Positions 3,285 through 18,304 of a stretch of 53,221 nucleotides of DNA are shown piece after piece. Position 1 is the stretch's first letter; every line of letters begins with the position of its first letter. This stretch comes from Bacteroidia bacterium. Its GTDB lineage: Bacteria; Bacteroidota; Bacteroidia; B-17B0; Aurantibacillaceae. The notes under the pieces were generated by a model that was not told the DNA's origin, searched no databases, and worked only from the letters and a program-made list of their open reading frames with translations. The stretch covers positions 1 through 53,221 of the forward strand of contig JANYIQ010000011.1 in assembly GCA_025362575.1 (NCBI GenBank). Reading direction: 5' to 3'. The position numbers were made by a program, and so were the translations under genes.

Positions 3285-3448
3285 TGCCTGATCCTACTAT
3301 AAAAAGGTACCTATAAAGTTACAACAACAATAACATAATTACAAGAATCTTATTGTGCTAAGGGGCCAAATAATCAAAAACATGACTTTTAACATAATAA
3401 TTGTGAAAGAATTCGTCTAAAACGTAACAGCAAGCCACTATTTTGTTA

Positions 3449-3456
3449 TAATTTTG
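3449..3456 (+). promoter_or_regulatory. Putative -7 box TAATTTTG for kup
   Basis: TAATTTTG matches the Bacteroidota -7 consensus TAnnTTTG. It would place the transcript start near 3461-3464, downstream of the in-frame GTG at 3456, and so supports the ATG at 3483 as the real kup start. No clear TTTG -33 box is seen at the usual spacing. Confidence 0.5.
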
Positions 3457-3482
3457 TGGCGCATTTAACTCCCACCTTTATA

Positions 3483-5453
3483 ATGAGCTCTCCTCAAAAC
3501 GGGCATCACCACGGTCACCTTAACAAGATAACTCTTGGAGGCTTAATCGTTACACTGGGCATTATTTATGGCGATATCGGAACCTCGCCACTCTATGTAA
3601 TGAGCGCAATTGTGGGGCAGGGCGCTATTAACGCGGATATTGTAAGAGGCGGACTTTCGTGCATTTTCTGGACGATCACCCTACAAACCACCATAAAGTA
3701 TGTTATTCTAACTCTTCAGGCAGATAATAAGGGAGAAGGAGGAATTTTTTCTTTGTTTACCCTTGTAAAACGCACAAAGTATAAGTGGCTCATTGTGGCC
3801 GCCATCATTGGCGGTTGCGCCTTGTTGGCTGATGGAATAATTACCCCTCCGATTTCGGTTGCCGCCGCCGTTGAAGGACTTCGGTTTTTTCATGAAGGAA
3901 TAAATACTGTTCCAATTGTAATAGGAATTTTATTCGCCTTGTTTTTTATTCAGCAATTCGGAACCAGCTTTATTGGTAAATTTTTCGGACCAATGATGGT
4001 GGCCTGGTTTTTGATGCTGGGAATACTTGGTGTAATGCAGCTGAGTAGCGATTGGAGCATTTTCTCTTCATTAAACCCTTATTATGCATACGCGTTATTG
4101 AAGTTGCATCCGTCCGGATTTTTGATTTTAGGCTCTGTGTTCTTGTGTACCACCGGCGCGGAAGCCTTGTATTCTGATCTGGGTCATTGTGGCAAAAAGA
4201 ACATCCGGATCTCGTGGATATTTGTAAAAGCGATGTTGATCTTAAATTATTTCGGGCAAGGCGCTTGGCTGATCGCTCACGAAGGACAAACACTTATGTC
4301 TTTCAAATCGACCAACCCGTTTTATGCTATGATGCCAGAGAGCTTTTTGCCTTATGGAATTGTTATAGCCACAATGGCCGCCGTTATTGCCTCTCAGGCA
4401 TTAATTAGCGGCTCTTTTAGTTTAATAAATGAAGCCATGCGATTAAACTTATGGCCAAAAGCAAGGGTAAAATATCCATCCGAACTAAAGGGTCAGTTGT
4501 ACATACCTTCGCTAAATTGGTTGCTTTTATTAGGGTGTATTGGTGTTGTACTTTATTTTAGAGAATCATCCAACATGGAAGGCGCCTATGGTCTGGCTAT
4601 TGTTTTGTGTATGTTAATGACAACCACCTTGCTCAATTTTTACATGCACATGAAACGGTATAATCGCTTCTTGATTTATTTTATCATAACAATGTATCTG
4701 ATCATTGAGGTGTCTTTTTTAGCGGCGAATCTCAGCAAATTTGCCAATGGCGGATGGATCACCCTCTTAATAGCTTTATGTTTAATTACTATTATGGCAG
4801 TTTGGTTTTTGGCAAAAAAGATTCGTCACCGTTATGTTGATATGGTAAAGATCGACGATTACAAACAGATGTTAGCAGACCTGAGCAATGACAACACCAT
4901 TCAAAAGTACGCCACGCATTTGGTTTATATGACCAGCGCTAATAGCCCAGAAGAAATAGAATCAAAAGTAATTTACAGCATTTTGCAAAAGCGCCCCAAA
5001 AAAGCGGATATCTATTGGTTTGTTCACGTTGATGTGGTGGATGAGCCATATCGCATGGAGTACAAGGTAACTCACATTGCGGCCGATGATATTATCCGCG
5101 TTGATTTCAGATTAGGTTTCCGCGTGGCGCCGCGCATTAATTTTATGTTTAGAAAAGTGGTGGAAGATCTGGTGAACAACAAAGAAGTGGATATTACAAG
5201 CCGTTACGAATCATTGAACAGAAATAATATTAGTGGCGACTTTAAATTTGTGGTAATAGAAAAATATTTATCCTTTGATAATGATCTTCCGTTCTTCGAT
5301 AAGTTGGTGATGAAAATTTACTTCTTCCTTAAACATTACAGCTTAAGTGAAGCGAAAGCATTTGGTTTGGACAGCAGTTCGGTGAAGGTTGAGAAATTCC
5401 CGCTGTTATTTAAAACGCCTGCGCTTACAAATCTAAAGAGGGTAGATAGTTAA
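3483..5453 (+). CDS. kup: KUP-family low-affinity potassium uptake protein
   Basis: Potassium:proton symporter of the inner membrane. From the ATG at 3483 the protein is 656 residues, normal for the family. The signature GDIGTSPLYV sits at residues 30-39 and is followed by about 12 hydrophobic segments up to residue ~450. A soluble C-terminal domain of ~200 residues completes the K_trans architecture. A GTG at 3456 would extend it by nine residues, but the putative -7 box overlaps that codon, so the ATG is preferred. The N-terminus carries a His/Gly cluster (HHHGH) ahead of the first membrane helix. It is convergent with the histidine kinase gene, with four bases between the stops. Confidence 0.93.
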   Translation: MSSPQNGHHHGHLNKITLGGLIVTLGIIYGDIGTSPLYVMSAIVGQGAINADIVRGGLSCIFWTITLQTTIKYVILTLQADNKGEGGIFSLFTLVKRTKYKWLIVAAIIGGCALLADGIITPPISVAAAVEGLRFFHEGINTVPIVIGILFALFFIQQFGTSFIGKFFGPMMVAWFLMLGILGVMQLSSDWSIFSSLNPYYAYALLKLHPSGFLILGSVFLCTTGAEALYSDLGHCGKKNIRISWIFVKAMLILNYFGQGAWLIAHEGQTLMSFKSTNPFYAMMPESFLPYGIVIATMAAVIASQALISGSFSLINEAMRLNLWPKARVKYPSELKGQLYIPSLNWLLLLGCIGVVLYFRESSNMEGAYGLAIVLCMLMTTTLLNFYMHMKRYNRFLIYFIITMYLIIEVSFLAANLSKFANGGWITLLIALCLITIMAVWFLAKKIRHRYVDMVKIDDYKQMLADLSNDNTIQKYATHLVYMTSANSPEEIESKVIYSILQKRPKKADIYWFVHVDVVDEPYRMEYKVTHIAADDIIRVDFRLGFRVAPRINFMFRKVVEDLVNNKEVDITSRYESLNRNNISGDFKFVVIEKYLSFDNDLPFFDKLVMKIYFFLKHYSLSEAKAFGLDSSSVKVEKFPLLFKTPALTNLKRVDS

Positions 5454-5457
5454 TGGG

Positions 5458-6957
5458 TCAGGCTTCAAAATTTATTTTTGCTTCAGTTCCATTATCGTTA
5501 ACAAACTCAAGCTTTCCGCTGATTTGATCCGCTAATATCTGGATCAACTCCATCCCCAAACTGGTGAACTCTTTTTTACCTGCCGGAAAACCGGAACCGT
5601 TATCTTTTACCGATAACATTAAGTGTTGTCCTTGTTTTTTAAGCATGATCTCAATTGATCCTGAAGGCTTATTTTTAAAGGCGTGTTTATAGCAATTGGT
5701 AATAAGTTCGTTGATGATAAGTCCAAGTGGGATCGCAATGTCTAAATTCAGCTGAATGTCATCGCAGGTAATTTTTGTGGTGACAGGCTTATCGGTATTA
5801 TTAAAAGAGGACTCAATTTCCCTGATAAGCGTTTTCAAATAACTGGATATGGAAATGTTCGACATGTTGTTCTGAGTATACAACAACTGATGGATGAGCG
5901 CCATGGAATTGATGCGCTGACGGCTTTCCTGCAGCACCTCTTTTAAATTCTCATCCTGTGTTTTATCAGACTGCAAATTCAGCATACTAGAAATGATCTG
6001 TAAATTATTCTTTACGCGATGGTGAATTTCCTTCATTAAGAATTCTTTTTCCTTCAAGGTTGCCTCAATGGTGTTTTTTTGCTGAATGATGTGTTTGTTC
6101 TTAACGTGTAATTCATTTTGGCGACGACGATTGGTTTTTATGTTCACCACTAAAAAGATCACGGCGAAAAGCAAAACGATGATGCCGGAAAGCAGGTAAG
6201 CTCTGTCGGATCTTTCGCGCTCATGCTCTAACTGCGAAGTTTGAATTATTTTTTCTTTCTCAACCAAGAGATTCTCTTTCTGATAAAGATCAAAAGCTAC
6301 CTGCTGATTAATGAGCTGGGTTTCGTTATCCGCGAGTTTGGTAGAATCTTTTTGGCGAATGTATTTATCAAAGAATTCATTGGCCTTTTTATAATTGCCC
6401 GTGTAAGTATAATATTTTGCTTCAATTAACATGTTGGCAAGAGCAGGTGTTAATTCCTCTGTTCGCGATAATAATTGCTTACAACTATCAATGTATCTGT
6501 AGGCCAGGTCGAATTGTTTCAGTTCAAGATAACATTCAGAAATCAAATTGTAACTATTAGCAGCACTTTCAAGATTATTCACTTTTAAACTGTAATAAAT
6601 GTCTTTTTTAAGCGGAGCAACAGCTTCTTTGTATTGCTTCCTCTTCGCGTAAATAGATGCCGTGTTGCCGTCTATAAGAGCGCTGAAAAAAGTATAATAC
6701 ATTTTTGCAGGATCGGATTTTGCTTTTACATCAACAATTGATTTTGCTTTCTGAAAATAAAATACGGCGGTGTCCAACTGATTAGCCTTATTAAAATGAA
6801 CACCCATGTTATTATAAAAATTCCCTAAGGCGTTACTGTCAGCTCTGTGTTCGGCCCCCTTTTGATTGAATTCTTTACGCAATTGTTTGATCGATTCTTT
6901 GTAAAGGCCAAGTCTCAGATAGATAAGACTTTTCTCAACAATGTAATCTCGCTGCAT
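5458..6957 (-). CDS. TPR histidine kinase, HisKA_2 type (C-terminal part of a frameshifted gene)
   Basis: Sensor kinase core. Residues 1 to about 225 are TPR-like helices, a membrane helix follows at about 253-272 (LLSGIIVLLFAVIFLVV), then a coiled linker. The HisKA_2 phosphoacceptor box is EIHHRVKNNLQIISSML, with His likely phosphorylated. The HATPase domain shows an N box (NELITNCYKHAF) and G1 box (DNGSGFP). As read, it starts at an internal ATG with no signal peptide. The upstream overlapping frame (6915-7439) supplies the signal peptide and first TPR helices. Adding one A to the A6 run just before this ATG fuses both into one 660-residue kinase. No response regulator lies next to it. Confidence 0.85.
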   Translation of the reverse strand: MQRDYIVEKSLIYLRLGLYKESIKQLRKEFNQKGAEHRADSNALGNFYNNMGVHFNKANQLDTAVFYFQKAKSIVDVKAKSDPAKMYYTFFSALIDGNTASIYAKRKQYKEAVAPLKKDIYYSLKVNNLESAANSYNLISECYLELKQFDLAYRYIDSCKQLLSRTEELTPALANMLIEAKYYTYTGNYKKANEFFDKYIRQKDSTKLADNETQLINQQVAFDLYQKENLLVEKEKIIQTSQLEHERERSDRAYLLSGIIVLLFAVIFLVVNIKTNRRRQNELHVKNKHIIQQKNTIEATLKEKEFLMKEIHHRVKNNLQIISSMLNLQSDKTQDENLKEVLQESRQRINSMALIHQLLYTQNNMSNISISSYLKTLIREIESSFNNTDKPVTTKITCDDIQLNLDIAIPLGLIINELITNCYKHAFKNKPSGSIEIMLKKQGQHLMLSVKDNGSGFPAGKKEFTSLGMELIQILADQISGKLEFVNDNGTEAKINFEA

Positions 6958-7439
6958 ATTTTTTGGAAGACGGCTTTTTGTTTTTCATACACCTCTTCAA
7001 TTTCAAACACTTTATTGTAATTTCTTAATTTCATGTAAGAAGTGGCCAGAAGATCGAATGCCTTTGCGCTGTCTGCCAGATCTTTGGTATGAAACCGCAA
7101 GCCATTCTCTAAAAGAAAAACGGTTTTATGATACTGATGTAATTCAAACTCACGCTTTGCTTCGATCAGATCAAATAAATATTTAGCTTCATTGCTGTTT
7201 GATCTGGTGTAAACCTTTTTTTTGATCTCGTTCAATGAATCCTTGATGTACTGGTAAACCTGACTTAATGCTACCGGACTTAGATCGGCGACCATTTTAA
7301 CTTTGTCTTTTAAATTGGCGCCATTGAATTTTTGAACAAGACTGTCGCGGTTAATATCTTGAGCTAAAAAACCAAAGGGCAACACGAAGAATGCAAGAAG
7401 AAAAATTCTGGTATTTAGTAATAAACGTAGAAAATTCAC
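6915..7439 (-). CDS. N-terminal part of the frameshifted TPR histidine kinase
   Basis: This 174-residue frame starts at GTG (7439) with a signal peptide (hydrophobic core IFLLAFFVLPFGFLA, then Q) and continues as TPR-like helices. It leaves the kinase frame at the six-T run 6959-6964 (AAAAAA on the coding strand); its last ~17 residues (from about ICSEITLLRK to the stop) are probably out of frame. The span 5458-7439 is 1982 nt; one added base gives 661 codons without internal stops, so this is best read as the 5' half of one sensor kinase gene. A sequencing or assembly error in a homopolymer, a true mutation, or slippage are all possible. Confidence 0.75.
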   Translation of the reverse strand: MNFLRLLLNTRIFLLAFFVLPFGFLAQDINRDSLVQKFNGANLKDKVKMVADLSPVALSQVYQYIKDSLNEIKKKVYTRSNSNEAKYLFDLIEAKREFELHQYHKTVFLLENGLRFHTKDLADSAKAFDLLATSYMKLRNYNKVFEIEEVYEKQKAVFQKICSEITLLRKVLSI

Positions 7440-7486
7440 AGGTTAATCCGTATTAATTAAAAGATCTCGAGCACAAGGTAATCAAA

Positions 7487-7494
7487 CAAATATA
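7487..7494 (-). promoter_or_regulatory. Putative -7 box TATATTTG for the histidine kinase
   Basis: On the minus strand TATATTTG matches TAnnTTTG and lies 47 nt upstream of the GTG start at 7439. No convincing -33 box. Position fits a short leader. Confidence 0.35.
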
Positions 7495-7568
7495 TTATTT
7501 TAGATGTTTAGATAAAGGATTTTGCTTTTTTATTAATACCCGAAAAGAAAAGCCATTCCTAGAGGGAT

Positions 7569-7649
7569 GCCCTGGAGCAAGGCGAGTAGGGCCATTTGGC
7601 GAAAAATTCAGTTATTGCTAAATGCAAAGCTTATTAATAATGAGCTTTG
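7569..7649. repeat. Two intergenic stem-loops
   Basis: In the 281-bp gap between the kinase and the lipoprotein gene there are two inverted repeats: GCCCT/AGGGC (7569-7573 with 7588-7592) and CAAAGCT/AGCTTTG (7625-7631 with 7643-7649). Neither is followed by a T run in a way that marks a clear terminator. Nothing else is recognisable in the gap. Confidence 0.35.
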
Positions 7650-7720
7650 GTTGAATAAATAAATGCTGAAACCACAAAATATTCAGTATTTTCAACGAAT
7701 AATTTAAACGAAAATTCTTT

Positions 7721-8137: not shown

Positions 8138-8842
8138 CTAAGCTGCCCATCCGTCTCTGTCCAGACTTCTATACTGAATTGCTTCGGCAATGTGATTCGG
8201 CATAATGTTTTCAGAAGCTTCCAGATCTGCAATGGTTCTTCCTACTTTTAAGATCCGGTCGTAAGCGCGAGCCGATAATCCTAATTTTTCCATGGCGGTT
8301 TTTAGAAGTGTATTTCCTGCCTCACTTAATTTGCAATATGTTTTTATATCGGAAGAACGCATCTGTGCATTACAATAAATACCGCTATCTGAATTGAACC
8401 TCTTCGTTTGTATCAACCTTGCATTAATTACACGCTCACGGATATTGTTACTCGACTCTGCTAATTGCTGATTACTTAATTCGCTGAAAGGAACCGGAGT
8501 AACCTCCACGTGCAGATCAATTCTATCTAACAGCGGGCCTGAAATTCTGTTGAGGTATTTTTGTACCACGCCAGGCGCGCATACACATTCTTTTTCAGGA
8601 TGATTGAAGTAACCGCATGGGCAAGGATTCATACTCGCCACAAGCATAAAGCTTGCAGGATATTCCACGCTGAATTTGGCACGACTGATCGTTACCACCC
8701 TGTCTTCTAACGGTTGACGCATTACCTCTAAAACAGTTCTTTTAAATTCAGGCAATTCATCTAAAAATAGAACGCCGTTATGTGCCAGCGAGATTTCGCC
8801 GGGCTGAGGATTATTGCCACCTCCTACGAGGGCCACATCGGT
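8138..8842 (-). pseudogene. yifB: 3' fragment of yifB/comM (Mg chelatase-like AAA+ ATPase)
   Basis: From DVALVGGG at about 8839 down to the stop at 8138 this is the C-terminal half of YifB/ComM: Walker B ([11 protein letters not shown]), the arginine-rich [10 protein letters not shown], a zinc-like Cys cluster ([17 protein letters not shown]), [16 protein letters not shown], and the C-terminal Mg_chelatase domain ([20 protein letters not shown]). ComM is a helicase-like branch-migration factor in natural transformation. The frame stays open for ~68 codons upstream of the junction (to 9046), but those residues do not match YifB. The segment with Walker A is missing from both fragments, so the product cannot be a normal ATPase. 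Confidence 0.9.
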
Positions 8843-9272
8843 CGCAGTGTTGCAATACAACAGAATCAAAAGTGCCAGTTTTGTGCTTAGAGTCAGAACT
8901 TTATCTCTTCCGGGAAAAATCAAATTTGTTATCAGTTCAGTTTGATTACCGGTAAATCTGTGAAAGAAACTTTGAGGCATGACAAATTCCTGCCCCCGCA
9001 AGACCATATCTTCCCTCACCCAACTGCAATTAACCTCCATAAACAACCTGAAAAATATCAGGTAAATTTAGCTTTTTATCGGGAATTCGAGCAATTTTAC
9101 CTCTTAAATTCTGTTTTTTCTTGGGTTTAACGAGACATTAGGCTCCATCTGGAGTTACTGGCTACAACGTCGTCAAGTATCTGGAAAATCGAGAATTTGG
9201 GGAAATTCTGATGGCGAACTTTTATAACAAATGGTTTTTTCCTTACAGCAACAGAATAAAATTATAATTTGC
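8843..9272. other. Left end of island, no recognised gene
   Basis: About 430 bp without a gene I can support. The minus-strand yifB frame remains open up to 9046, but these codons do not resemble YifB or anything I know. On the plus strand a 41-codon open stretch (9139-9267, product containing GYNVVKYLENREFGE) has no start codon and might be a decayed fragment. No transposase motif or terminal repeat is visible. Confidence 0.4.
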
Positions 9273-9286
9273 CGACACTTATGTCG
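9273..9286. promoter_or_regulatory. Palindromic operator candidate upstream of XRE gene
   Basis: CGACA-CTTA-TGTCG is a perfect 5-bp inverted repeat with a 4-nt centre. It sits ~21 bp before the putative -7 box of the XRE gene, so it would cover the -33 region. Controller proteins of restriction systems bind similar short palindromes, so autoregulation is a fair inference. Confidence 0.45.
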
Positions 9287-9306
9287 CTTTTTATGAGATA
9301 AAGTAC

Positions 9307-9314
9307 TACATTTG
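9307..9314 (+). promoter_or_regulatory. Putative -7 box TACATTTG of the restriction-modification operon
   Basis: TACATTTG matches TAnnTTTG and is followed by only three bases (ATT) and the ATG at 9318. If the box is real, the operon's first message would have almost no leader. Confidence 0.45.
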
Positions 9315-9317
9315 ATT

Positions 9318-9560
9318 ATGAAAAAGTATCCAGCCCAGATTAGAAAATTTGGAAAGCGTATAAAGAGTTTACGGGAGGAGAATGATTTAACCCAGAAAGA
9401 ACTGGGAGTTAAAGCAGGCCTTACATCAAGAACTATTCAGCGAATTGAAGCTGGTGATTTTGCATCAACGCTCCATATACTAATTGCCTTGGCGAAAGCG
9501 TTTAGCGTAAGTACAGGAGAATTAATTAAAGAAATTACCGTTGAACCGGCTAAGAAGTAA
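9318..9560 (+). CDS. XRE-family transcriptional regulator (controller-like)
   Basis: An 80-residue HTH_3 protein. The helix-turn-helix is LTQKELGVKAGLTSRTIQRI, at about residues 24-43, followed by a dimerisation helix pair. It lies six bases before hsdM on the same strand, the usual place for a control gene of a type I operon, so its likely job is to tune expression of hsdMSR by binding the palindrome at 9273-9286. A TTG at 9312 is also in frame, but the ATG at 9318 is the better start because the TTG overlaps the -7 box. Confidence 0.85.
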   Translation: MKKYPAQIRKFGKRIKSLREENDLTQKELGVKAGLTSRTIQRIEAGDFASTLHILIALAKAFSVSTGELIKEITVEPAKK

Positions 9561-9566
9561 TTTAAT

Positions 9567-12215
9567 ATGGCAAATAAAATTTCACTTTCACGATTAGAAA
9601 CATTCCTTTTTGACGCTTGCGATATTCTGCGAGGAAATATGGATGCGTCTGAGTACAAGGAATACATAATCTCAATGTTATTTCTTAAAAGAGTAAACGA
9701 CCAATTCGATGTGCATAGAGATAAACGCAAAAAGAAATTGGTAGAAGAAAAAGGACTCAACGACCCCAATGAAATTTACAAGGAATTGGAAATTCAGAAC
9801 GCACCTGAATATGATTTCTTTGTTCCGCTATCAGCAAGATGGAAGCGTTTAGCTGGAGACCCGGAATTTTTTACGGATGAAGAAGGAAAACAACAAGCAA
9901 ATAATTTCATTAAAGATTTGCAAGAAGAAATTGGAGACCATTTAAACAAATCGTTGGCTGCATTAGAAAGTGCTAACCTTGATAAGTTGGATGGTGTATT
10001 CAATCAGGATAACATCAATTTCAATAAGACTTTTGGAAAAAACAATAAGCAAATTAGTGATGAGGATTTAAGAGAACTGATTCGTCACTTCAATAAAATG
10101 AATCTTCGGGATGATAATTTGGAATTTCCGGATTTGATGGGCGCGGCTTATGAATATCTTATTAAACATTTTGCAGACAGTGCCGGTAAGAAGGCCGGAG
10201 AATTCTACACTCCAAGTGAAGTAGTTAAACTTTTAGTAAATATTCTTGAACCAGGAGAAGATGCTGAAATTTATGACCCCACTTTAGGAAGTGGCGGTAT
10301 GCTAATTGAAAGTAGAAACTATGTGGAAAGTCGTTATGGCAGTGCCAAAAACCTTTCACTATATGGCCAAGAGAAAAGCGGAACCGTTTGGGGGTTGTGT
10401 AAAATGAATATGTTGTTTCATAGCATTTATGACAGCAAGATATTGAATGGAGATACACTTGTAAAATCCTTACATACCGAGAATGGTGAATTAAAAACAT
10501 TTGACATTGTAATAGCTAATCCGCCTTTCTCCCAGAATTATAGTTGGGCAGCTACGCAACAGAGAGAGCGATTCCATTTTAGAATGGCAGAAAAAGGAAA
10601 AGCTGATTTTATGTTTGTGCAACACATGGTCGCTTCTCTAAAAAATGATGGGCGTATGGCCGTGGTAATGCCTCATGGTGTACTGTTTCGTGGTGGCGAT
10701 GAAAGAAAATTTAGGGAGTGGCTGATTCAACTTACGGGCAGCGGTGACCGCTGTTTTCTTGAGGCAGTTATTGGCTTGCCCTCTGCTTTGTTTTATGGAA
10801 CTGGCATTGGCGCAAGTGTTATTGTCATAAATAAAAAGAATGCTCATATCCGTGACAAAGTTCTTTTTATAAATGCTGACCGAGAATATAAAGAAGGGAA
10901 AAACCAGAACAAATTACGTCCTGAAGACATTGAAAAAATAGCGTTCACTTACCGAAACAAAAAAGAAATTTTAAAATACAGTAAGCTTATAAGTAAAAAG
11001 GAACTGGCTATTGAAGAATATAATTTAAACATTAAGAGATTTGTTGACAATGCACCACCTCCGGAACCTAATGATGTTCACGCTCATTTGCTAGGTGGTA
11101 TTCCTGAAAACGAAGTTAAATCACTTAAAGCGTTTTTAAATTGTTATAATGGAATAAATAAAAAATTGTTTGAGAATCTGAAAAAAGGATATTTAAAATT
11201 TACCTCTGCTATTGTTCAAAAAGAGGATATTAAAAAATTATTTGATGATAGTGATGAAATAAAAACGGCTCAGGCCCAGTACATAAATGCAATTCATGAG
11301 TGGTGGCAACAACAAGTGCCCGTCATTGAACAATTGCCTAATAAAACCATCAATGTATTTGACCTCTATCATCAGTTCTCAGCAACGCTTACTGAAAAAT
11401 TGGTTGCATTACCCATTTTAGACGAATTTAAAAGCAGGGGCTCGTTCGCAAGTTATTGGAATTGCATTACTAATGATATTAAAAGTGTTGAAGCCAGTGG
11501 ATGGAATGCCGAGTTGATACCGGATGACGAAATCTTGGAAAGCCAATTTCCTGAAGTGTTGACGGAATTGCGAACCAATGAGTCAAGACGAGATGAGCTA
11601 CAATCTAAATTTGATGAAGTAAACGAATTGGAAGATGATGTTTGGAATGAAGAGGACTATGAAGTATGGCGAAGCAAGGAGATGAAAGAACACAAAGAAG
11701 AAATTAAGACCCTGAAAAGCGAACGCAAAGAAATAGATAAAGAGTTTAAGAATTTACAGAAAAGAACAAAAGCAAATGAAAAAGCGGGCGCTATGTTTAG
11801 TGTTGAAGTAGATGACCTAAAAAAAGATTCTGAAAGAATGAAATTACAACTAAAACAATTAGATGAACAAATTGAATCGGGCGAACTGCGTTTCGCAAAA
11901 CATACTTTATTAGAAGAAGAGCTAAAACAGTGTAAGAAAATAATTAAGGAGATAAAAGACCGTAAACAAAATCTTGTAGACCAAGCTCGTTTGAGCATTA
12001 CACCTGAAGCCGCCAAAGAATTAATACTAAAACGATGGCTACTTACACTGCACCAAACGATAACGGGGTATTTGTTGGCTCACCAAAGATTTTTATTGAA
12101 TGCCATTGAAATGCTTTTTGAAAAATACACTACAACTTTAGAAAGCATTTTAAGTATAAGGGAGAAAGAAACCAAACTGTTAAATGAATTCTTAATAGAA
12201 TTGGGTTATGAATAA
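9567..12215 (+). CDS. hsdM: Type I restriction-modification DNA methyltransferase subunit HsdM
   Basis: N6-adenine methyltransferase subunit. An HsdM_N helical domain (residues about 1-150) precedes the MTase domain with SAM motif I DPTLGSGG (D237) and catalytic motif IV NPPF (N318-F321). At 882 residues it is much longer than the common ~500-550. The extra C-terminal ~350 residues include a charged coiled coil at about 690-820 (many KE/EK repeats such as [17 protein letters not shown]). The 3' end overlaps hsdS by eight bases, implying coupled translation. With HsdS it should form a working methylase even though hsdR is broken. Confidence 0.93.
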
Positions 12216-13515
12216 ATGGACGGAAGAAATATTAAGCAAAAAGGTCGATTTAATTCATGGTCATCAATTTAGGGACAATGACTTTGTGGAAGATGGTTTA
12301 CCTATTGTAAAAATTGGGCAATTAAGTCAGACCGGCGAAATTGATTTAAGTAATTGCTCCTTCGTTGACAAAAATGATTTTGAAAAATTTAAAGAATATC
12401 GCATCTACGAAGGTGATATTTTAATGGCCTTAACTGGTGCGACTTTAGGCAAAACAGTTAGAGTCACGAAGAATTTTGGAGTGATTTTTCAAAACTATCG
12501 CGTTGGAAAATTTCAGCCAATAGATGGGGCAATAAATAAGAACTTTTTATATTATCTGTTGATATCTGATAATATTCAAAGAGAGATGCTACTTAAAATA
12601 AACACGGCTGCCCAAGGTAATATAGGGAAAGCTGATTTTGAGAAAATTAAAATAAAATATCCTGATTATGCCATTCAAAAAAAAATAGGAAGTATTCTTT
12701 CCACCACGGATTTGGTAATAGATAAAACTCATGCCTCTGTTTCCAAATACAAAGCTATTAAACAAGGAATGTTGCAGGACTTATTTTCTCGTGGAATTGA
12801 CCTCAAGACAAAAAAATTGCGGCCACGATATATTGATGCTCCAGAATTATATAAGGAAAGTAAGTTAGGTTTTATTCCATTGGAATGGAATGTAAAAGAT
12901 TTCGGGAAAGAAGTTGATTTAATTCACGGGCATCAATTTAGGGATTATGATTTTAAAGAATTTGGTGTTCCAGTTGTAAAAATTGGTCAAGTAAAACCGG
13001 AAAATATCGACTTAACAAATTGCTCTTTCGTCAATTTTGGTAGAGAAGAGGAATTTAAAAACGAAATAATACGCAATGGAGATGTTTTAATGGCGTTAAC
13101 AGGAGCCACACTTGGAAAAGCCTGTTTGGTTAAGGGATTAAATGGTATTGTCTTTCAGAACTATCGCGTTGGAAGATTTGAACCCATAATAAGAGAGGAT
13201 GATATTGACAAGGAGTTTCTTTACTACTCACTTATTGCGGGCGAACTGTTAGGGCAGATTTTCAACAAAGTTAATTCAGGGGCTCAAGGAAATGTTGGTA
13301 AAGCAGATTTTGAAAAAGCAACTTTTAAAAAACCACCGTATAACGAACAATTGTTGATAGCAGAAAGATTACAAACGTTAGAAGACAAACTTACTGTTGA
13401 CCAAGATTTCCTGCGTAAACTTCAACAGCTCAAACAAGGTTTGATGAGTGATTTATTAAGTGGTACGAAAACAGTTGTAGTTAAAGAGGAATTATTAACG
13501 CAAAACGAAAACTAA
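12208..13515 (+). CDS. hsdS: Type I restriction-modification specificity subunit HsdS
   Basis: A 435-residue HsdS with two target-recognition domains, each followed by a conserved helical spacer ([18 protein letters not shown] and [19 protein letters not shown]). Normally the two domains differ, because each reads one half of a split, asymmetric site. Here they are clearly homologous along their whole length: [11 protein letters not shown] at 13-23 and again at 236-246, then [28 protein letters not shown] and GKADFEK in the same order. That predicts recognition of two similar half-sites, i.e. a near-palindromic target. It overlaps hsdM by eight bases and is followed by hsdR one base later. 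Confidence 0.93.
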
Positions 13516-13516
13516 T

Positions 13517-14590
13517 ATGGCCGAATATATAAATGTAGAAAAGCCCTTCATGGATAAACTTCGCCAATTACAATGGAAGGTGATTGACCAAGGATTTGGC
13601 ATACCACTAGACCCAGAAAAAAGTTTGCGAGAAAATTTCAAGCAAGTTGTTTTACCGAAAGTTTTTAAAGATGCAGTTAAGGCAATAAATAAAACTGCTG
13701 ATGGAAGAGAATGGCTTACGGAAACGCAATTAAATAATATACTCTTTGAAATTCAAAATTTTTCCGGAAAGACCTTACACGAAGCTAATAAGGAAATACA
13801 CCGGATGTTATTGAAAGGCACAAGTGTAGATAAAAACGAATTAACTGGAGAACAAAATCCAACTGTTCGTTTAATTGATTTCAGAAATTGGGATAGAAAT
13901 GTATTTACTGCCATTAATCAATTTCGTATTAATACCCCTGGGAGTACCAAAACTATGATAATTCCAGATATAGTTTTGTTCTTAAATGGAACGCCGGTAA
14001 TAGTAGTAGAAGCAAAAGACGATGACGAAAATGCAGAACCCTTGAGCGAAGCATTTTTACAAATAAGCAGATATGCAAATACAAGAGAGGACAGGTTTAG
14101 TGTGAATGAAGGTGAAGAACGTTTGTTTCATTATAATATTTTCAGCATAATAACTTTCGGCAGTGAAGCAAGAGTTGGCACTATCAGTGCAGATTTTGAA
14201 TTTTACAACAACTGGGTAGATATTTTTCCGGAAGAATACCGTGTGGTTGATTATCCTCCAAATGAAGAACGACAAGAAGTATTGATTCATGGAATGTTGA
14301 ACAAGGAAATTTTGGTTGACATACTGAAGCACCATACGTTGTTTATGGAAATCAAGAAAGGTGTGGAAGTGAAAGTAGTGGCCCGTTACAATCAATACCG
14401 GGCTGTTGGTAAAATCATTCGTAACATTCGCGAAGGGACTACGCCTCTTGAACGCGGTGGTGTCGTATGGCATACCCAAGGGAGTGGAAAAAGTTTAACA
14501 ATGGTTTTTCTAATTCGTAAACTCCGTAGTTGCGATGATTTGAAAGACCTTAAAGTTATTTTTGTTGTTGACAGAAGAGGTAGAAAATGA
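13517..14590 (+). pseudogene. hsdR: Truncated type I restriction endonuclease subunit HsdR
   Basis: Only the first ~350 of roughly 1000 residues remain. They contain the HsdR_N nuclease domain with the PD-(D/E)XK residues P150-D151 and E165-A-K167, then the helicase Walker A (GSGKS, residues about 322-326) and motif Ia region LKVIFVVDR. Intact family members continue with helicase motifs II-VI and a C-terminal domain that binds the methylase; all are absent. After VVDR the reading continues only RGRK-stop, so the break lies at about 14573-14580, where unrelated sequence begins. The complex should not be able to translocate or restrict DNA. Confidence 0.88.
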
Positions 14591-14597
14591 ACTTTAC

Positions 14598-14816
14598 ATG
14601 ATTATTCAAGAAACAATTAGCGAGAATCCGAAAAAATACGGCTATGAGGATTGTTCGGAAGAAGATGGGGGCGATTGGTTGGAGAATTTTGAAATATACT
14701 CAGGATTTACACTCAGGAACACACTTTATTTATCATTAGAAGAAGGAATTATCACCGGAGAGGAGTTTCTTCTATACAATAGAGATTATAAGTTAAAACA
14801 ATTATTTACGATCTAA
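14598..14816 (+). CDS. Short acidic protein or gene fragment downstream of hsdR break
   Basis: A frame open from 14562 (TTG) runs to a stop at 14816; the first ATG is at 14598, giving 72 residues. It is acidic (EDCSEEDGGDWLENFEIY) and ends in LLYNRDYKLKQLFTI. It lies in a different frame from hsdR and does not resemble HsdR's C-terminus. Since it appears exactly where hsdR is cut off, it is more likely the 3' end of another gene joined by deletion than an independent gene. Family not recognised. Confidence 0.4.
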   Translation: MIIQETISENPKKYGYEDCSEEDGGDWLENFEIYSGFTLRNTLYLSLEEGIITGEEFLLYNRDYKLKQLFTI

Positions 14817-15148
14817 ATTGTGGTGGGCAATTTTTCTTGGGGGTAAGTTTGATTTATCAAATGAGTGCTTCCTCAGAAGTGTTTCTCTTCTGATTGGTCA
14901 CTCATAATTGAAGGTCTTGGAGTATAAGCCGTCATTATCATATAGTCATCCGCCATGTGCTATAATTTGAGACCAACTTTTCGAGAATGTTTGGCTTCCC
15001 GTTCTATCTTACGACTCGTCTCTTTATGCCATCGTTGCCCTTGTAGAAATCCCCTAGTAAGGCTTTTTATTTTTTCAGAGGAGTAACCCTAGCGTTAAAT
15101 CATCTTCCGCAATTACTCTTCTATTCTTAATTTTCGTTAATCATTCTT
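14817..15148. other. Gap inside the island with a possible decayed reading frame
   Basis: 332 bp without a supported gene. On the minus strand, 14960-15088 is open for 42 codons between two stops (product with EKIKSLTRGFLQGQ and SRKIEREAK, a basic helical look) but has no start codon; it could be the remnant of a DNA-binding or mobilisation protein. No hairpin or promoter is clear. Base composition is AT-rich like the following genes. Confidence 0.35.
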
Positions 15149-15298
15149 TTACTTAAATCTTTCCAACCTAACTTTTAATCCGTCAATTTGTATTTTTAAT
15201 TTCAATATCTCCCTTTTCTTAAAATCTTTTTCAATCTTTAGTTTATCTCTATTAATCCTTATATTTCCGTTAAGTTTGTTTATCGTATCAATATTCAT
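15149..15298 (-). CDS. 49-residue helical, basic protein
   Basis: A short ORF (ATG at 15298, TAA at 15149) encoding a 49-residue Lys/Ile-rich protein that is almost wholly helix- or coiled-coil-prone (DKLKIEKDFKKREILKLKIQ). Its start overlaps the last 11 bases of the HTH gene, which suggests translational coupling. It is the last gene of the small minus-strand group in the island. Function unknown; the overlap is the main argument that it is real. Confidence 0.45.
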   Translation of the reverse strand: MNIDTINKLNGNIRINRDKLKIEKDFKKREILKLKIQIDGLKVRLERFK

Positions 15299-15515
15299 TT
15301 CTTCTTATAAAATTTTCATACAAAAGCTTTTCCATGATTGTAAATAAAATTTGCTCAGAATATAAATATTGATTCTTATATCTCATGGATTCAGAGATGC
15401 CGTTTCGCTTAATCTCTCTTTGTAGTTTAGACTTTGATGTACCTAATATTTTCATCATTGTATTGGCATCATAGAACTTATCGTTTTTTTCTGAAATGTA
15501 TCCTATTACTCTCAT
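15288..15515 (-). CDS. Small HTH protein, excisionase/MerR-like
   Basis: A 75-residue protein. The segment FYDANTMMKILGTSKSKLQ (residues about 14-32) followed by a YKNQYLYSEQIL wing resembles the winged helix-turn-helix of excisionases and MerR-like helix_turn_helix_17 proteins, which choose a DNA site by 'domain = tool, then name of residues after it'. It overlaps the acidic gene upstream by 38 bp if the ATG at 15515 is used; Met20 (15458) would remove the overlap but also most of the fold. It is the best candidate for binding the repeated operator motif at 15796 and 16258. Excisionase versus regulator cannot be decided here. Confidence 0.55.
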   Translation of the reverse strand: MRVIGYISEKNDKFYDANTMMKILGTSKSKLQREIKRNGISESMRYKNQYLYSEQILFTIMEKLLYENFIRRNEY

Positions 15516-15777
15516 ATTTCTTTTTTAGTCTTTTATACTCGTTTAAGAGTTCGTCAATCAATTCATCGTCAACCGTTTTTTCATCATCTGTTTCTTCTTC
15601 ATCATCAAATTCATTAACCAGTTTTGGTTTTCTTTTTCTATGCGGGGATTGCCCTTCTTCATCATCCGGCATTTCGATTTCATCTTCATTCTCCATATCA
15701 TCTCCCTCCTCTGGTTCTTTAGAGTATTTTTCTACAATGAACTTTATAAAGTCCGTTTGAACGTGTTTTCTTTTCAT
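15478..15777 (-). CDS. Highly acidic small protein, unknown
   Basis: From the ATG at 15777 the product is 99 residues; a longer frame starts at 15888 but would overlap the nuclease gene and the operator. The centre is extremely acidic (EPEEGDDMENEDEIEMPDDE, then FDDEEETDDEKTVDDE), with basic patches at both ends (MKRKH and FRKKR) and a coiled-coil-like tail (LIDELLNEYKRLKKKYE). Strongly acidic small proteins can be DNA mimics or chaperone-like partners, but nothing here proves that. It sits between the nuclease-like gene and the HTH gene in one apparent operon, with the operator palindrome just upstream. Confidence 0.55.
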   Translation of the reverse strand: MKRKHVQTDFIKFIVEKYSKEPEEGDDMENEDEIEMPDDEEGQSPHRKRKPKLVNEFDDEEETDDEKTVDDELIDELLNEYKRLKKKYESNRIHFRKKR

Positions 15778-15795
15778 ATTAGTTTTATTTTTTTG

Positions 15796-15813
15796 AACCG
15801 AATCAATTCGGTT
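15796..15813. promoter_or_regulatory. Perfect palindrome, operator candidate 1
   Basis: AACCGAAT-CA-ATTCGGTT: 8-bp arms and a 2-bp centre, 18 bp upstream of the acidic gene's ATG and beside an AT-rich TATATT stretch. The core TGATTCGGTTC plus a run of A recurs at 16258-16276 upstream of the nuclease-like gene in the same orientation, which points to one regulator for both. Confidence 0.5.
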
Positions 15814-15841
15814 TATGTTATATATTAAAATAAAAAAGTGT

Positions 15842-16237
15842 TTATTTTCTTCTTCTGAATCCTCGCAACCGTATAACACGAATGCCACTTTTTAATAGCA
15901 GATGTTTTACCTTGCTAATATCTGCGAACGTTGGTATTACTAAGTATTTACCAATTATGAAAGAGTGTTTGCCGGAATGATTTCTTGCGTAACAATTTAT
16001 TTGTATAATGTCAAATAAAGTAATTACCGGGACAGCCTTAACCTCAACGATAATTTTTTTATAGTAACTAGCCCCTCTATAGCGAATTTGTTTTTTGATT
16101 AAAAAATCAGGGCGATATCCTTTATGAGTTGCGTCTTGCGGTAATATGATGTAACCTTCGGAGTGAGGATATCTAACCCTCATTGTCAAATAAGCATTAT
16201 TATACATTTCGCTTTCAATAAATTTTTCTCTTGCCAC
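15842..16237 (-). CDS. Small PD-(D/E)XK nuclease-like protein
   Basis: A 131-residue protein (GTG at 16237; ATG at 16207 would give 121). It shows the nuclease-fold signature in the right order and spacing: GYRPDFLIKK (PD), then about 15 residues later IIVEVKA (E-x-K), then DIIQINCYARN, matching the Q-x-x-x-Y helix seen after the catalytic Lys in many restriction-like nucleases. The size suits a single-domain resolvase or restriction-like nuclease. It is the first gene of the minus-strand group. A role in defence or in moving the island is inference; there is no helicase or methylase partner in this group. Confidence 0.6.
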   Translation of the reverse strand: MAREKFIESEMYNNAYLTMRVRYPHSEGYIILPQDATHKGYRPDFLIKKQIRYRGASYYKKIIVEVKAVPVITLFDIIQINCYARNHSGKHSFIIGKYLVIPTFADISKVKHLLLKSGIRVIRLRGFRRRK

Positions 16238-16257
16238 AATTCTTACTTAAAATTTTT

Positions 16258-16276
16258 GAACCGAACCGAATCAGTT
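16258..16276. promoter_or_regulatory. Operator candidate 2, imperfect copy
   Basis: GAACCGAACCGAATCAGTT carries the ACCGAATCA core of the palindrome at 15796-15813, with CCGAA doubled and the right arm degraded. Both copies are flanked by TTTTTGAACC on one side and TTATATAT on the other. It lies 20 bp upstream of the nuclease-like gene's GTG and 81 bp from the divergent 91-residue gene, so it could control both. Confidence 0.45.
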
Positions 16277-16356
16277 AACCTTATATATAGAAAGTTGAAA
16301 TTGTTTTTACTAAACTTTTCATTGTTGATGTCTATAAGTATTATCTAAAAATATTT

Positions 16357-16632
16357 ATGGGAAATTTTAAAAAAGTAAAACTATACATAGAGTCTACAGG
16401 CTATATGTATACCACCGATGAAAATAATATTGAAGGTTGGGATGAAGGGATAATGGATGAGGACGATTGCAAAGTTGTGAAAGTTGAGGTAGTGGAAGAT
16501 TACGAGCTAAAACCTCAACATATTCGTTATATTAATTCACCTGAAATGAATGATAAGACCGATGATGAAATCGAAAAGGAAATTTTATCTCAGAGTAGAG
16601 ACAAGAAAATTAATTTGATTTTGAGAAAATGA
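16357..16632 (+). CDS. Acidic 91-residue protein, unknown
   Basis: The only plus-strand gene in the orphan part of the island. It is rich in Asp and Glu (NIEGWDEGIMDEDDC) with a beta-rich start (KVKLYIESTGYMYTT) and a C-terminal helix (DDEIEKEILSQSRDKK). It is divergent from the nuclease-like gene, sharing a 119-bp region that contains operator candidate 2, and convergent with the next gene, with two bases between stops. No family recognised. Confidence 0.5.
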   Translation: MGNFKKVKLYIESTGYMYTTDENNIEGWDEGIMDEDDCKVVKVEVVEDYELKPQHIRYINSPEMNDKTDDEIEKEILSQSRDKKINLILRK

Positions 16633-16634
16633 AG

Positions 16635-16928
16635 CTACTTAGTTTTTTTTGTTTTTTTAAGCAACTTGATTAATTCTTGTTTCCATTGAATTTCAAATTC
16701 CAAATCCTCAATCATACTAGCTTTATTTACATATCTCACGGTCAAGATGTATTCAATCATTGGAATAGTTAAATGATTTACTCTATTACTGATAATATAG
16801 TGGATTGCAGAACTTGGACCCCCTTCTCTAACTAAAATTTCATTCGCACGTCTAGCGATTATTTTGTCAATTGATTTTTCCTTTGAAACGATAGGGCTTG
16901 CTTTTTTTATACCAATTTGTTTTTTCAT
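16635..16928 (-). CDS. 97-residue basic protein, unknown
   Basis: A Lys-rich protein with predicted helices (SIDKIIARRANEILV; MIEDLEFEIQWKQELIKLL) and a basic tail (KKTKKTK). It is preceded by an AT-rich region containing the palindrome GTATATAC. No domain recognised. It is in a group of orphan genes of similar, AT-rich composition, so its origin is probably the same element. Confidence 0.5.
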   Translation of the reverse strand: MKKQIGIKKASPIVSKEKSIDKIIARRANEILVREGGPSSAIHYIISNRVNHLTIPMIEYILTVRYVNKASMIEDLEFEIQWKQELIKLLKKTKKTK

Positions 16929-16989
16929 TAGTAAAATTTTATTTGTTGTGTAAATGTATATACATATCAGTACAAAACCACAACAAAAG

Positions 16990-17511
16990 TTATTGTCTTA
17001 AGCGTGTGATTACATCTGAAATATTTAGTTGATCTGAAGGGTCTCGAGCAAGAACTTCCTCGGAGAACAACTGAATAATAATAGTTGCCCTTAGTTCTAC
17101 TAATACACCTTGATATACAATTGCATTTACATCTGAAAAACGATTTAAAGTTTCAATCATTCCGGATATCCATTCTCTTGCAATCTCTTCTGAAATTAAT
17201 TTTCTTTTTATGTAATCTAGTTCTTGAGTTGTAAGAAGTATATACTTGCGCAAAAGCCTATCGAAACCTTCTTGATTTTCTGCTAAGGTTTCTATCTGAC
17301 CTAACCGAAAAGCCATTGTAGAATATGTTGTCATGCACTTACTAACGACTTGAAATTCGTTACTGGATTTGGATAGCTTATCTGCTTTCCATAAAAAGAA
17401 AACAGAGAGACCACCAATGATTAATGAAATGAAAGCAAGCATTTCTAAAATGCCGTGAAGACTATTTGGTATCCACTCAAAGTGTGCGGGTTCTACTTCT
17501 AATAGTATCAT
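16990..17511 (-). CDS. Single-pass membrane protein with cytoplasmic helical domain
   Basis: A 173-residue protein with one membrane helix at about residues 22-43 (LEMLAFISLIIGGLSVFFLW) and a soluble, mostly helical region of ~130 residues (EIARE, ELDYIKRKLISEE, ITRLRQ). It resembles DUF4760-like or other small one-helix membrane proteins of phage and defence islands, but I cannot assign a family. It is the last island gene before the right border. Confidence 0.55.
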   Translation of the reverse strand: MILLEVEPAHFEWIPNSLHGILEMLAFISLIIGGLSVFFLWKADKLSKSSNEFQVVSKCMTTYSTMAFRLGQIETLAENQEGFDRLLRKYILLTTQELDYIKRKLISEEIAREWISGMIETLNRFSDVNAIVYQGVLVELRATIIIQLFSEEVLARDPSDQLNISDVITRLRQ

Positions 17512-17614
17512 GTTTTTGAATTTCTAAAGTGGAAAAGTACAAACAAATTATTACTTAAAAAAAATCGAAATCAAGGTTAGATTATAAGAAAATATGTCTT
17601 GAAGATTTAAGTGA

Positions 17615-17636
17615 AAAACGAGATGAAAACGAGATG
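17615..17636. repeat. Tandem 11-bp repeat near the right island border
   Basis: AAAACGAGATG occurs twice in tandem (17615-17625, 17626-17636), followed by another AAAA. It lies 61-82 bp from the yifB junction in otherwise AT-rich, gene-free sequence. Short tandem repeats near an element end can be recombinase or transposase binding sites; here that is only a suggestion, and the left end has no matching copy. Confidence 0.4.
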
Positions 17637-17674
17637 AAAATTTAATTCATAATTTGTAATGAATTAATAATTAG

Positions 17675-18304
17675 TCAATTAATACAAATATATTTTATAT
17701 TCTTCGATTCTTTTACATCAGCAAAATCAAAAGCCACATCACTCAAACGGTTCAAAAATGTTTCTGCCAGATCCACCTTTACTTTCTCAAGACCTTCGCC
17801 TTTATTGAAAAAATCGATCACCTGTTTTATGTTTTCAGCACAATAAACATCCAACCCTTCAACAACAGCGGCTTCCCGGCCATTTTGCACCGGCAGAATG
17901 ATCCCTTTAAAACCTTCTTGTTTAGCCTTTATAGCAATTGGTAAACAGCCACGAATAGGCCGTATTTCACCATCCAGAGATAACTCCCCCATAATGGCAT
18001 ATTTATCAATGTTTTCGGCATTTATTTGTTCTGAGGCCCCCAAAATACCAATGGCTATGGTTAGATCATAGGCCGAACCTTCCTTTCTGATATCGGCCGG
18101 AGCCATATTTACAGTAATGGTTTTGCCCGGAACCTTGTAGCCATGATTGTTAAGGGCTGCCCTTACTCTTTGCTGGCTCTCTTTTACCGCACTATCGGGT
18201 AATCCAACAATAAAAAAATTAACTCCTGTTGCAATATTTACCTCTACCGCAACCTTTGTGGCATTAATGCCATGAACCGCAAACCCAAACGTTTTTACCA
18301 ACAT
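17675..18304 (-). pseudogene. yifB: 5' fragment of yifB/comM
   Basis: The N-terminal ChlI/LonC-like domain of YifB is complete: MLVKTFGFAVHGI, VGLPDSAVKESQQRVRAAL, NMAPADIRKEGSAYDL, and ELSLDGEIRPIRG, up to FDFADVK at about residue 197. In intact proteins this is followed by GQENIKRAL and the Walker A loop. Here the reading goes from DVK through ESKNIK and then leaves the family (YICIN-stop), so the break is near 17697. The 3' half is at 8138-8842. Its promoter is not evident; the secreted-protein gene at 18432 is divergent. Confidence 0.9.

Follow-up and report, generated by a model that had tools for sequence, protein, structure and literature searches.

When several small genes of opposite charge and overlapping ends lie side by side, do they form one working unit, or are they the remains of unrelated elements? 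This question is raised by positions 15149–16632 of the window, the whole stretch of 53,221 nucleotides from a Bacteroidia bacterium (contig JANYIQ010000011.1) that was analysed here. An earlier note, made from the letters alone, had described a nuclease-like, an acidic, a helix-turn-helix (HTH) and a short basic helical protein with a shared operator, faced by a divergent acidic protein, and had proposed a small module for defence, anti-defence or mobilisation. We tentatively read these genes as a small operon that regulates itself and centres on a solitary, restriction-associated nuclease, carried as cargo in a decaying, defence-type island in comM. A second reading, in which the genes are unrelated cargo, stands level with it, each being possible rather than probable.

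Gene layout and island setting

All five predicted ORFs are present in the window's ORF list at exactly the positions originally given for them. Four lie on the minus strand. The first, with a GTG start, encodes a very basic protein of 131 residues (15842..16237; net charge +17, pI 10.3). It is followed by a 99-residue protein (15478..15777; net −10, pI 4.85), whose extremely acidic centre proves to be a 60-residue core of net −23 between basic ends, by a predicted 75-residue winged-helix HTH protein of MerR/excisionase/Par-like type (15288..15515; net +5), and by a 49-residue basic ORF (15149..15298; net +8). The divergent 91-residue protein on the plus strand (16357..16632) is acidic, as had been said (net −8). 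The 11-bp overlap between the 75-residue and 49-residue genes was confirmed, and a 38-bp overlap between the 99-residue and 75-residue genes can be added to it. For the 49-residue product, described earlier as a basic helix, the ORF, overlap and charge all stand, and the helix is likely from sequence. Two further minus-strand ORFs in the same island were absent from the earlier note, as were the truncated hsdR and the split comM described below: a basic one of 97 residues (16635..16928), and one of 173 residues with an N-terminal hydrophobic segment as judged from sequence (16990..17511), an orphan that sits near the comM junction.

Codon usage was scored after training on 22 genes of the window. 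The acidic, 91-residue (score 0.239) and 97-residue frames fall within the range of the window's known genes. The nuclease, HTH, 49-residue (0.045) and 173-residue frames score between −0.04 and +0.05, and the best wrong frame reaches 0.059. As their codon usage is not gene-like, the case for coding is made by homologues for the nuclease gene, by the predicted fold together with a weak Pfam match for the HTH gene, and by position alone for the 49-residue ORF. The 49-residue and 173-residue frames are candidate genes.

These genes lie within an island of 8.85 kb (window 8839–17693) that splits comM. By comparison with relatives, the C-terminal part of comM occupies 8138..8839 (homology starts at 8839) and the N-terminal half 17675..18304 (homology ends at 17693), both on the minus strand. 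Approximately 225 bp of the gene are missing, including the GPPGAGKT segment of relatives, which we take to be the Walker A motif. Of the seven other members of the genus, five carry an entire comM and two a copy truncated by the end of a contig; the gene is uninterrupted in these genomes as far as the contigs reach.

The island contains, on the plus strand, a gene for an XRE-type HTH regulator (9318..9560; HTH_3, E 3.4e-13) just upstream of hsdM (9567..12215; N6_Mtase, E 2.5e-98), then hsdS (12208..13515; Methylase_S, E 1.7e-27) and an hsdR cut to 357 residues (13517..14590). The last matches HSDR_N (E 3.5e-36) and ends within the SWI2/SNF2 motor, covering positions 2–58 of 221 of the SWI2_SNF2 model. 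With hsdR truncated, this is not a complete type I restriction–modification system, and the missing part was recognised in none of the genome's four SWI2_SNF2 matches, as judged by position and length. The hsdM and hsdS genes look intact beside the cut hsdR, so that a modification-only system is possible. The remainder of the island is a stretch of low-GC genes (0.23–0.34 versus 0.38 for the window), a composition that fits foreign DNA. The candidate operon lies in this stretch, approximately 0.6 kb (3′ end) to 1.6 kb (5′ end) from the truncated hsdR. A Pfam scan of 12 island ORFs found no recombinase, relaxase or transposition gene. The island shows visible decay, and its contents are of defence type.

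Between hsdR and the operon lies an 84-residue ORF (14562–14816) with no relative in plasmids, and then approximately 330 bp (14816–15149) that hold no convincing ORF on either strand and may be a decayed gene. The window contains no tRNA and no Rfam match at the gathering cut-off; two chance-level Rfam matches fall in 14560–17700. The gene stretch matches no known anti-phage system of PADLOC-DB 2.0.0: the nuclease had no match, and those of the HTH protein to mad1 (E 0.009) and of the acidic protein to PbeC (E 0.48) are weak or generic. The acidic protein has no relatives in viral contigs or phages, and the 97-residue and 173-residue proteins have none in viral contigs, plasmids or phages. 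The 91-residue protein has no relative in viral contigs, no Pfam or NCBIfam match and one chance-level PHROG match (E 0.079); any link between it and the operon is putative.

The nuclease and its relatives

Members of the PD-(D/E)XK superfamily carry the motif set E / PD / ExK / QxxxY. Conservation of the corresponding residues had been named beforehand as the check on the PD-(D/E)XK-like assignment, and E8, P43-D44, E65-x-K67 and Q79-xxx-Y83 are invariant in 4/4 aligned sequences, those of the window and of three relatives. An AlphaFold2 model (pLDDT 87.5, pTM 0.82) has the element order H-E-E-E-H-E-H-E, and nuclease chains predominate among its best matches to known structures (VIA; Z 7.1–9.8). 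These include AF1548 (Z 9.8), presumably a nuclease, although its structure entry is titled unknown function, a Pyrococcus repair endonuclease (9.3), Can2 and EndoMS (both 9.2), PaqCI (8.6), EcoT38I (8.3) and XisH (8.1). By motif and modelled fold, the 131-residue protein is a genuine single-domain PD-(D/E)XK protein, for which DNA cleavage is predicted.

At the level of sequence, the protein has no match in the PDB. It reaches 14.0 bits with Pfam PDDEXK_3, under the curated cut-off of 22, and therefore belongs to an unnamed family of the known superfamily. All four family members match PDDEXK_3 weakly (best E 0.0056). The NCBIfam model GxxExxY (TIGR04256) does not match the window nuclease and gives its L032 relative a score of 14.8 (cut-off 35). 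The XisH model of Pfam gave no match at E values up to 1, with PDDEXK_3 the only model listed.

Relatives are few. A search of 87 genomes yielded a broken 55-residue copy (E 7.8e-14) in a member of the window's taxonomic family (G066). Across 394 other genomes of the class sample, the sole match besides this was a full-length copy in G312. An alignment search of an 84,980-species genome collection matched 61 stretches, of which five loci were confirmed: apparently the G066 and G312 copies again, L037 from a Deltaproteobacteria MAG, L039 from a WOR-3 MAG, and L040, a partial match of 38 residues within a 329-residue protein that was excluded from the full-length alignment as too partial. The broken copy (L002) was used in the first alignment (A1) only. 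A profile of the four full-length nucleases was run on 394 other genomes of the phylum sample and on 12 others of G312's order, and added no new genome in either. The nuclease was not found in plasmids, phages or viral contigs, and the L037 relative as query found none in plasmids or phages. Further search matches with E values of 2.7e-4 to 0.01, at five places in four genomes, correspond to other long frames or to a frame with stops; of these places, L003 was inspected. The family is, as far as these searches reach, rare, small, unnamed and present in distant phyla.

The neighbourhoods of the relatives bear on what the nuclease may do. The L037 relative is full length and starts 15 bp beyond the end of hsdM, with hsdS and hsdR downstream of it and all genes on one strand: hsdM ends at 2182, the nuclease occupies 2198–2554, an RNase H-like/SWIM protein 2545–3387, hsdS 3389–4669 and an intact hsdR 4656–7694. 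Two extra genes, for the small nuclease and the RNase H-like/SWIM zinc-finger protein, are thereby placed between hsdM and hsdS (L037:2198–3387). The nuclease of L032/L036 (from 1498) stands approximately 360 bp from a DNA methyltransferase gene that diverges from it (frame start 1137). In L039 the nuclease is flanked by subtilase and RNA-methyltransferase-like genes, with no restriction or hsd genes adjoining it. The broken copy of L002/L038 (L002:1501–1644), 53–59% identical over the aligned part, lies approximately 150 bp after a tRNA-Ala gene.

One of the four full-length loci is thus inside a type I operon (L037), one in an island with a type I system (the window), one beside a methyltransferase gene (L032) and one with neither (L039). 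As three of these four have a restriction or methyltransferase gene nearby, the family looks restriction-associated, a link that rests on few loci. Should a broader survey bear this link out, an accessory nuclease of restriction systems would be indicated. The restriction genes around the nuclease here and in L037 lend indirect support to the defence role proposed earlier.

The idea of a recurring module, which the earlier note would have given up if homologues never co-occur, fared less well. No acidic, HTH or 49-residue gene was found near the nuclease in any of the four neighbourhoods (L032/L036, L037, L039 and the broken L002/L038), and no palindrome with 7-bp arms lies within 150 bp upstream of the three full-length relatives or the broken copy. 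The sequences compared therefore do not support the gene set as a conserved system.

The upstream repeat and the HTH protein

A palindrome had been noticed before the acidic gene and a degraded copy of it before the nuclease gene. The 18-bp palindrome, AACCGAAT-CA-ATTCGGTT, is exact at 15796–15813, its only site in the draft genome. A palindrome with 8-bp arms is by itself not unusual, at least one being present in 47 of 100 shuffles of the AT-rich region. It is part of a 54-nt direct repeat, however, which makes the shared element stronger than had been claimed: the copies before the acidic gene (15790..15843) and before the nuclease gene (16253..16306) are identical at 40 of 54 positions, ungapped. 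The similarity score of the upstream regions is 26; dinucleotide shuffles (2000) reached at most 20, and random island pairs (2926) at most 19. Both copies keep a TATATA stretch and share a terminal GGTTCAAAAA. The second copy is not a palindrome: the half site AACCGAA, inverted in copy 1, is direct in copy 2, giving two direct half sites, GAACCGAACCGAAT. The two copies look like duplicated control regions and are candidate operators or promoters. Since the repeat precedes both genes and scores far above shuffled sequence, the nuclease and acidic genes are likely to be controlled together.

Two other roles for the palindrome were rejected. With up to two mismatches the genome holds one other match, on C269, in a predicted coding frame (265 residues, L035), and thus no second intergenic site that would indicate a regulon elsewhere. 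On the plus strand the palindrome is terminator-like, but one such structure was found against 1.5 expected. Sigma-70-type sites numbered 15, with 15.9 expected.

The 75-residue protein was described earlier as an excisionase/MerR-like HTH, and modelling is in keeping with such a fold. It matches Pfam HTH_17 at 19.8 bits (cut-off 27; E 0.00096), and its single-sequence AlphaFold2 model (pLDDT 84) matches mostly Par, RacA and MerR-type DNA-binding domains at Z 5.6–7.2. These values lie below 8, a range where common arrangements also score and where a Ski-like human protein reaches 7.0. The best structural match is the pSK1 Par DNA-binding domain (8csh; Z 7.2, rmsd 1.5 over 53 residues), followed by RacA (Z 7.1). 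The protein models as a putative winged helix of MerR/excisionase/Par type. Its only sequence relative is weak, a stretch of 41 residues with 45% identity among small genes of a viral contig (L042); none was found in plasmids, phages or 86 other genomes of the order.

An excision or mobilisation module, in keeping with the XisH match and the Xis-like matches of the HTH protein, was considered and rejected as the leading reading: there is no XisH sequence match, and the 12 scanned island ORFs include no recombinase or relaxase. The earlier proposal of mobilisation gains no support from them.

Readings of the locus and known systems

In the autoregulated operon that we tentatively propose, the genes would be read as a single transcript. 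The HTH protein, encoded downstream, would bind both copies of the 54-nt element and thereby repress both the nuclease gene and the acidic gene, whose product would buffer or inhibit the highly basic nuclease; and the nuclease would cut DNA on infection or DNA entry, with defence as the presumed outcome. The nuclease motif and fold count for this reading, as do the L037 operon, the L032 methyltransferase gene and the proximity of the truncated hsdR, the repeat beyond chance together with the MerR/Par/RacA-like model, and the opposite charges (+17 and −10) of proteins encoded on one strand with 38-bp and 11-bp overlaps. Against it count the absence of the gene set from all four neighbourhoods, the lack of a restriction gene at L039, the PADLOC result and the codon usage of the nuclease, HTH and 49-residue frames. 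As the island is visibly decayed, the operon may also be inactive.

We give the same weight to the view that these genes were left behind by several different mobile elements, as phage or plasmid early genes that piled up in a comM hotspot; the HTH protein would then be an excisionase or a regulator of partition, and the repeat no more than a duplicated control region. This would account for the missing co-occurrence at every neighbourhood examined, for the decay seen in the cut hsdR and comM and in the L002 remnant after tRNA-Ala, and for the affinities of the HTH protein, both the weak relative among small viral-contig genes and the structural matches of Par/RacA/Xis type. It sits less easily with a repeat that precedes two genes of the set, with their compact same-strand order and with the restriction link of the nuclease family in L037.

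A toxin–antitoxin pair, with the nuclease as toxin and the acidic protein as antitoxin autoregulated through the shared element, seems unlikely to us. The two genes are small and adjacent, their products are oppositely charged and an upstream element is shared; yet the acidic gene is placed behind the nuclease with its own copy of the element, and no such partner stands beside the nuclease in L032, L037 or L039. A type II system would be recognised by a conserved adjacent pair, and the partner is present in none of the four relatives' neighbourhoods.

Somewhat more doubtful still is an accessory effector of the type I system, in which the nuclease would work with HsdM–HsdS and possibly replace the truncated HsdR. 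The L037 relative is embedded in a complete hsd operon and the window nuclease lies near hsdMS with a broken hsdR, but the latter lies on the strand opposite to hsd and is controlled separately, L037 has an intact hsdR, and L039 has no hsd genes alongside. Very improbable, finally, is the broader idea of an undescribed solitary-nuclease family that partners type I modification complexes, with its gene embedded between hsdM and hsdS in one lineage and governed by a repressor of its own in a second. Such a nuclease could take over as the cutting subunit where HsdR has been lost, held in check by the acidic inhibitor.

Among the publications listed by literature searches none deals with this gene set, by which we do not claim its absence from print. 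Its parts can be compared with known systems. The nuclease shares single-domain size and the order E..PD..ExK..QxxxY with PDDEXK_3 and GxxExxY (TIGR04256) proteins, but falls under the Pfam cut-off of the former and does not match the latter. XisH, the fdxN element excision controlling factor (2okf, 2inb), has a similar single-domain fold (Z 8.1, rmsd 3.6 over 106 residues), at 13% identity and with no Pfam sequence match. The nuclease domains of NucS/EndoMS and AF1548 are the best structural matches (Z 9.2–9.8), at 7–22% identity and in a fold common to many functions. The HTH protein resembles the winged helices of MerR, RacA (Z 7.1) and pSK1 Par (8csh, Z 7.2), at Z values below 8, but with 13% identity and no sensor domain in its 75 residues.

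For the island, the closest parallel is found in Acinetobacter, where most AbaR islands are reported to insert in comM and inactivate it, and the interruption to lower transformation (PMC7508600). The window island likewise interrupts comM, whereas it differs from AbaR in the loss of approximately 225 bp of the gene and in having no transposition gene among the 12 ORFs scanned with Pfam. Interruption of comM, known from Acinetobacter, is hereby extended to a distant lineage.
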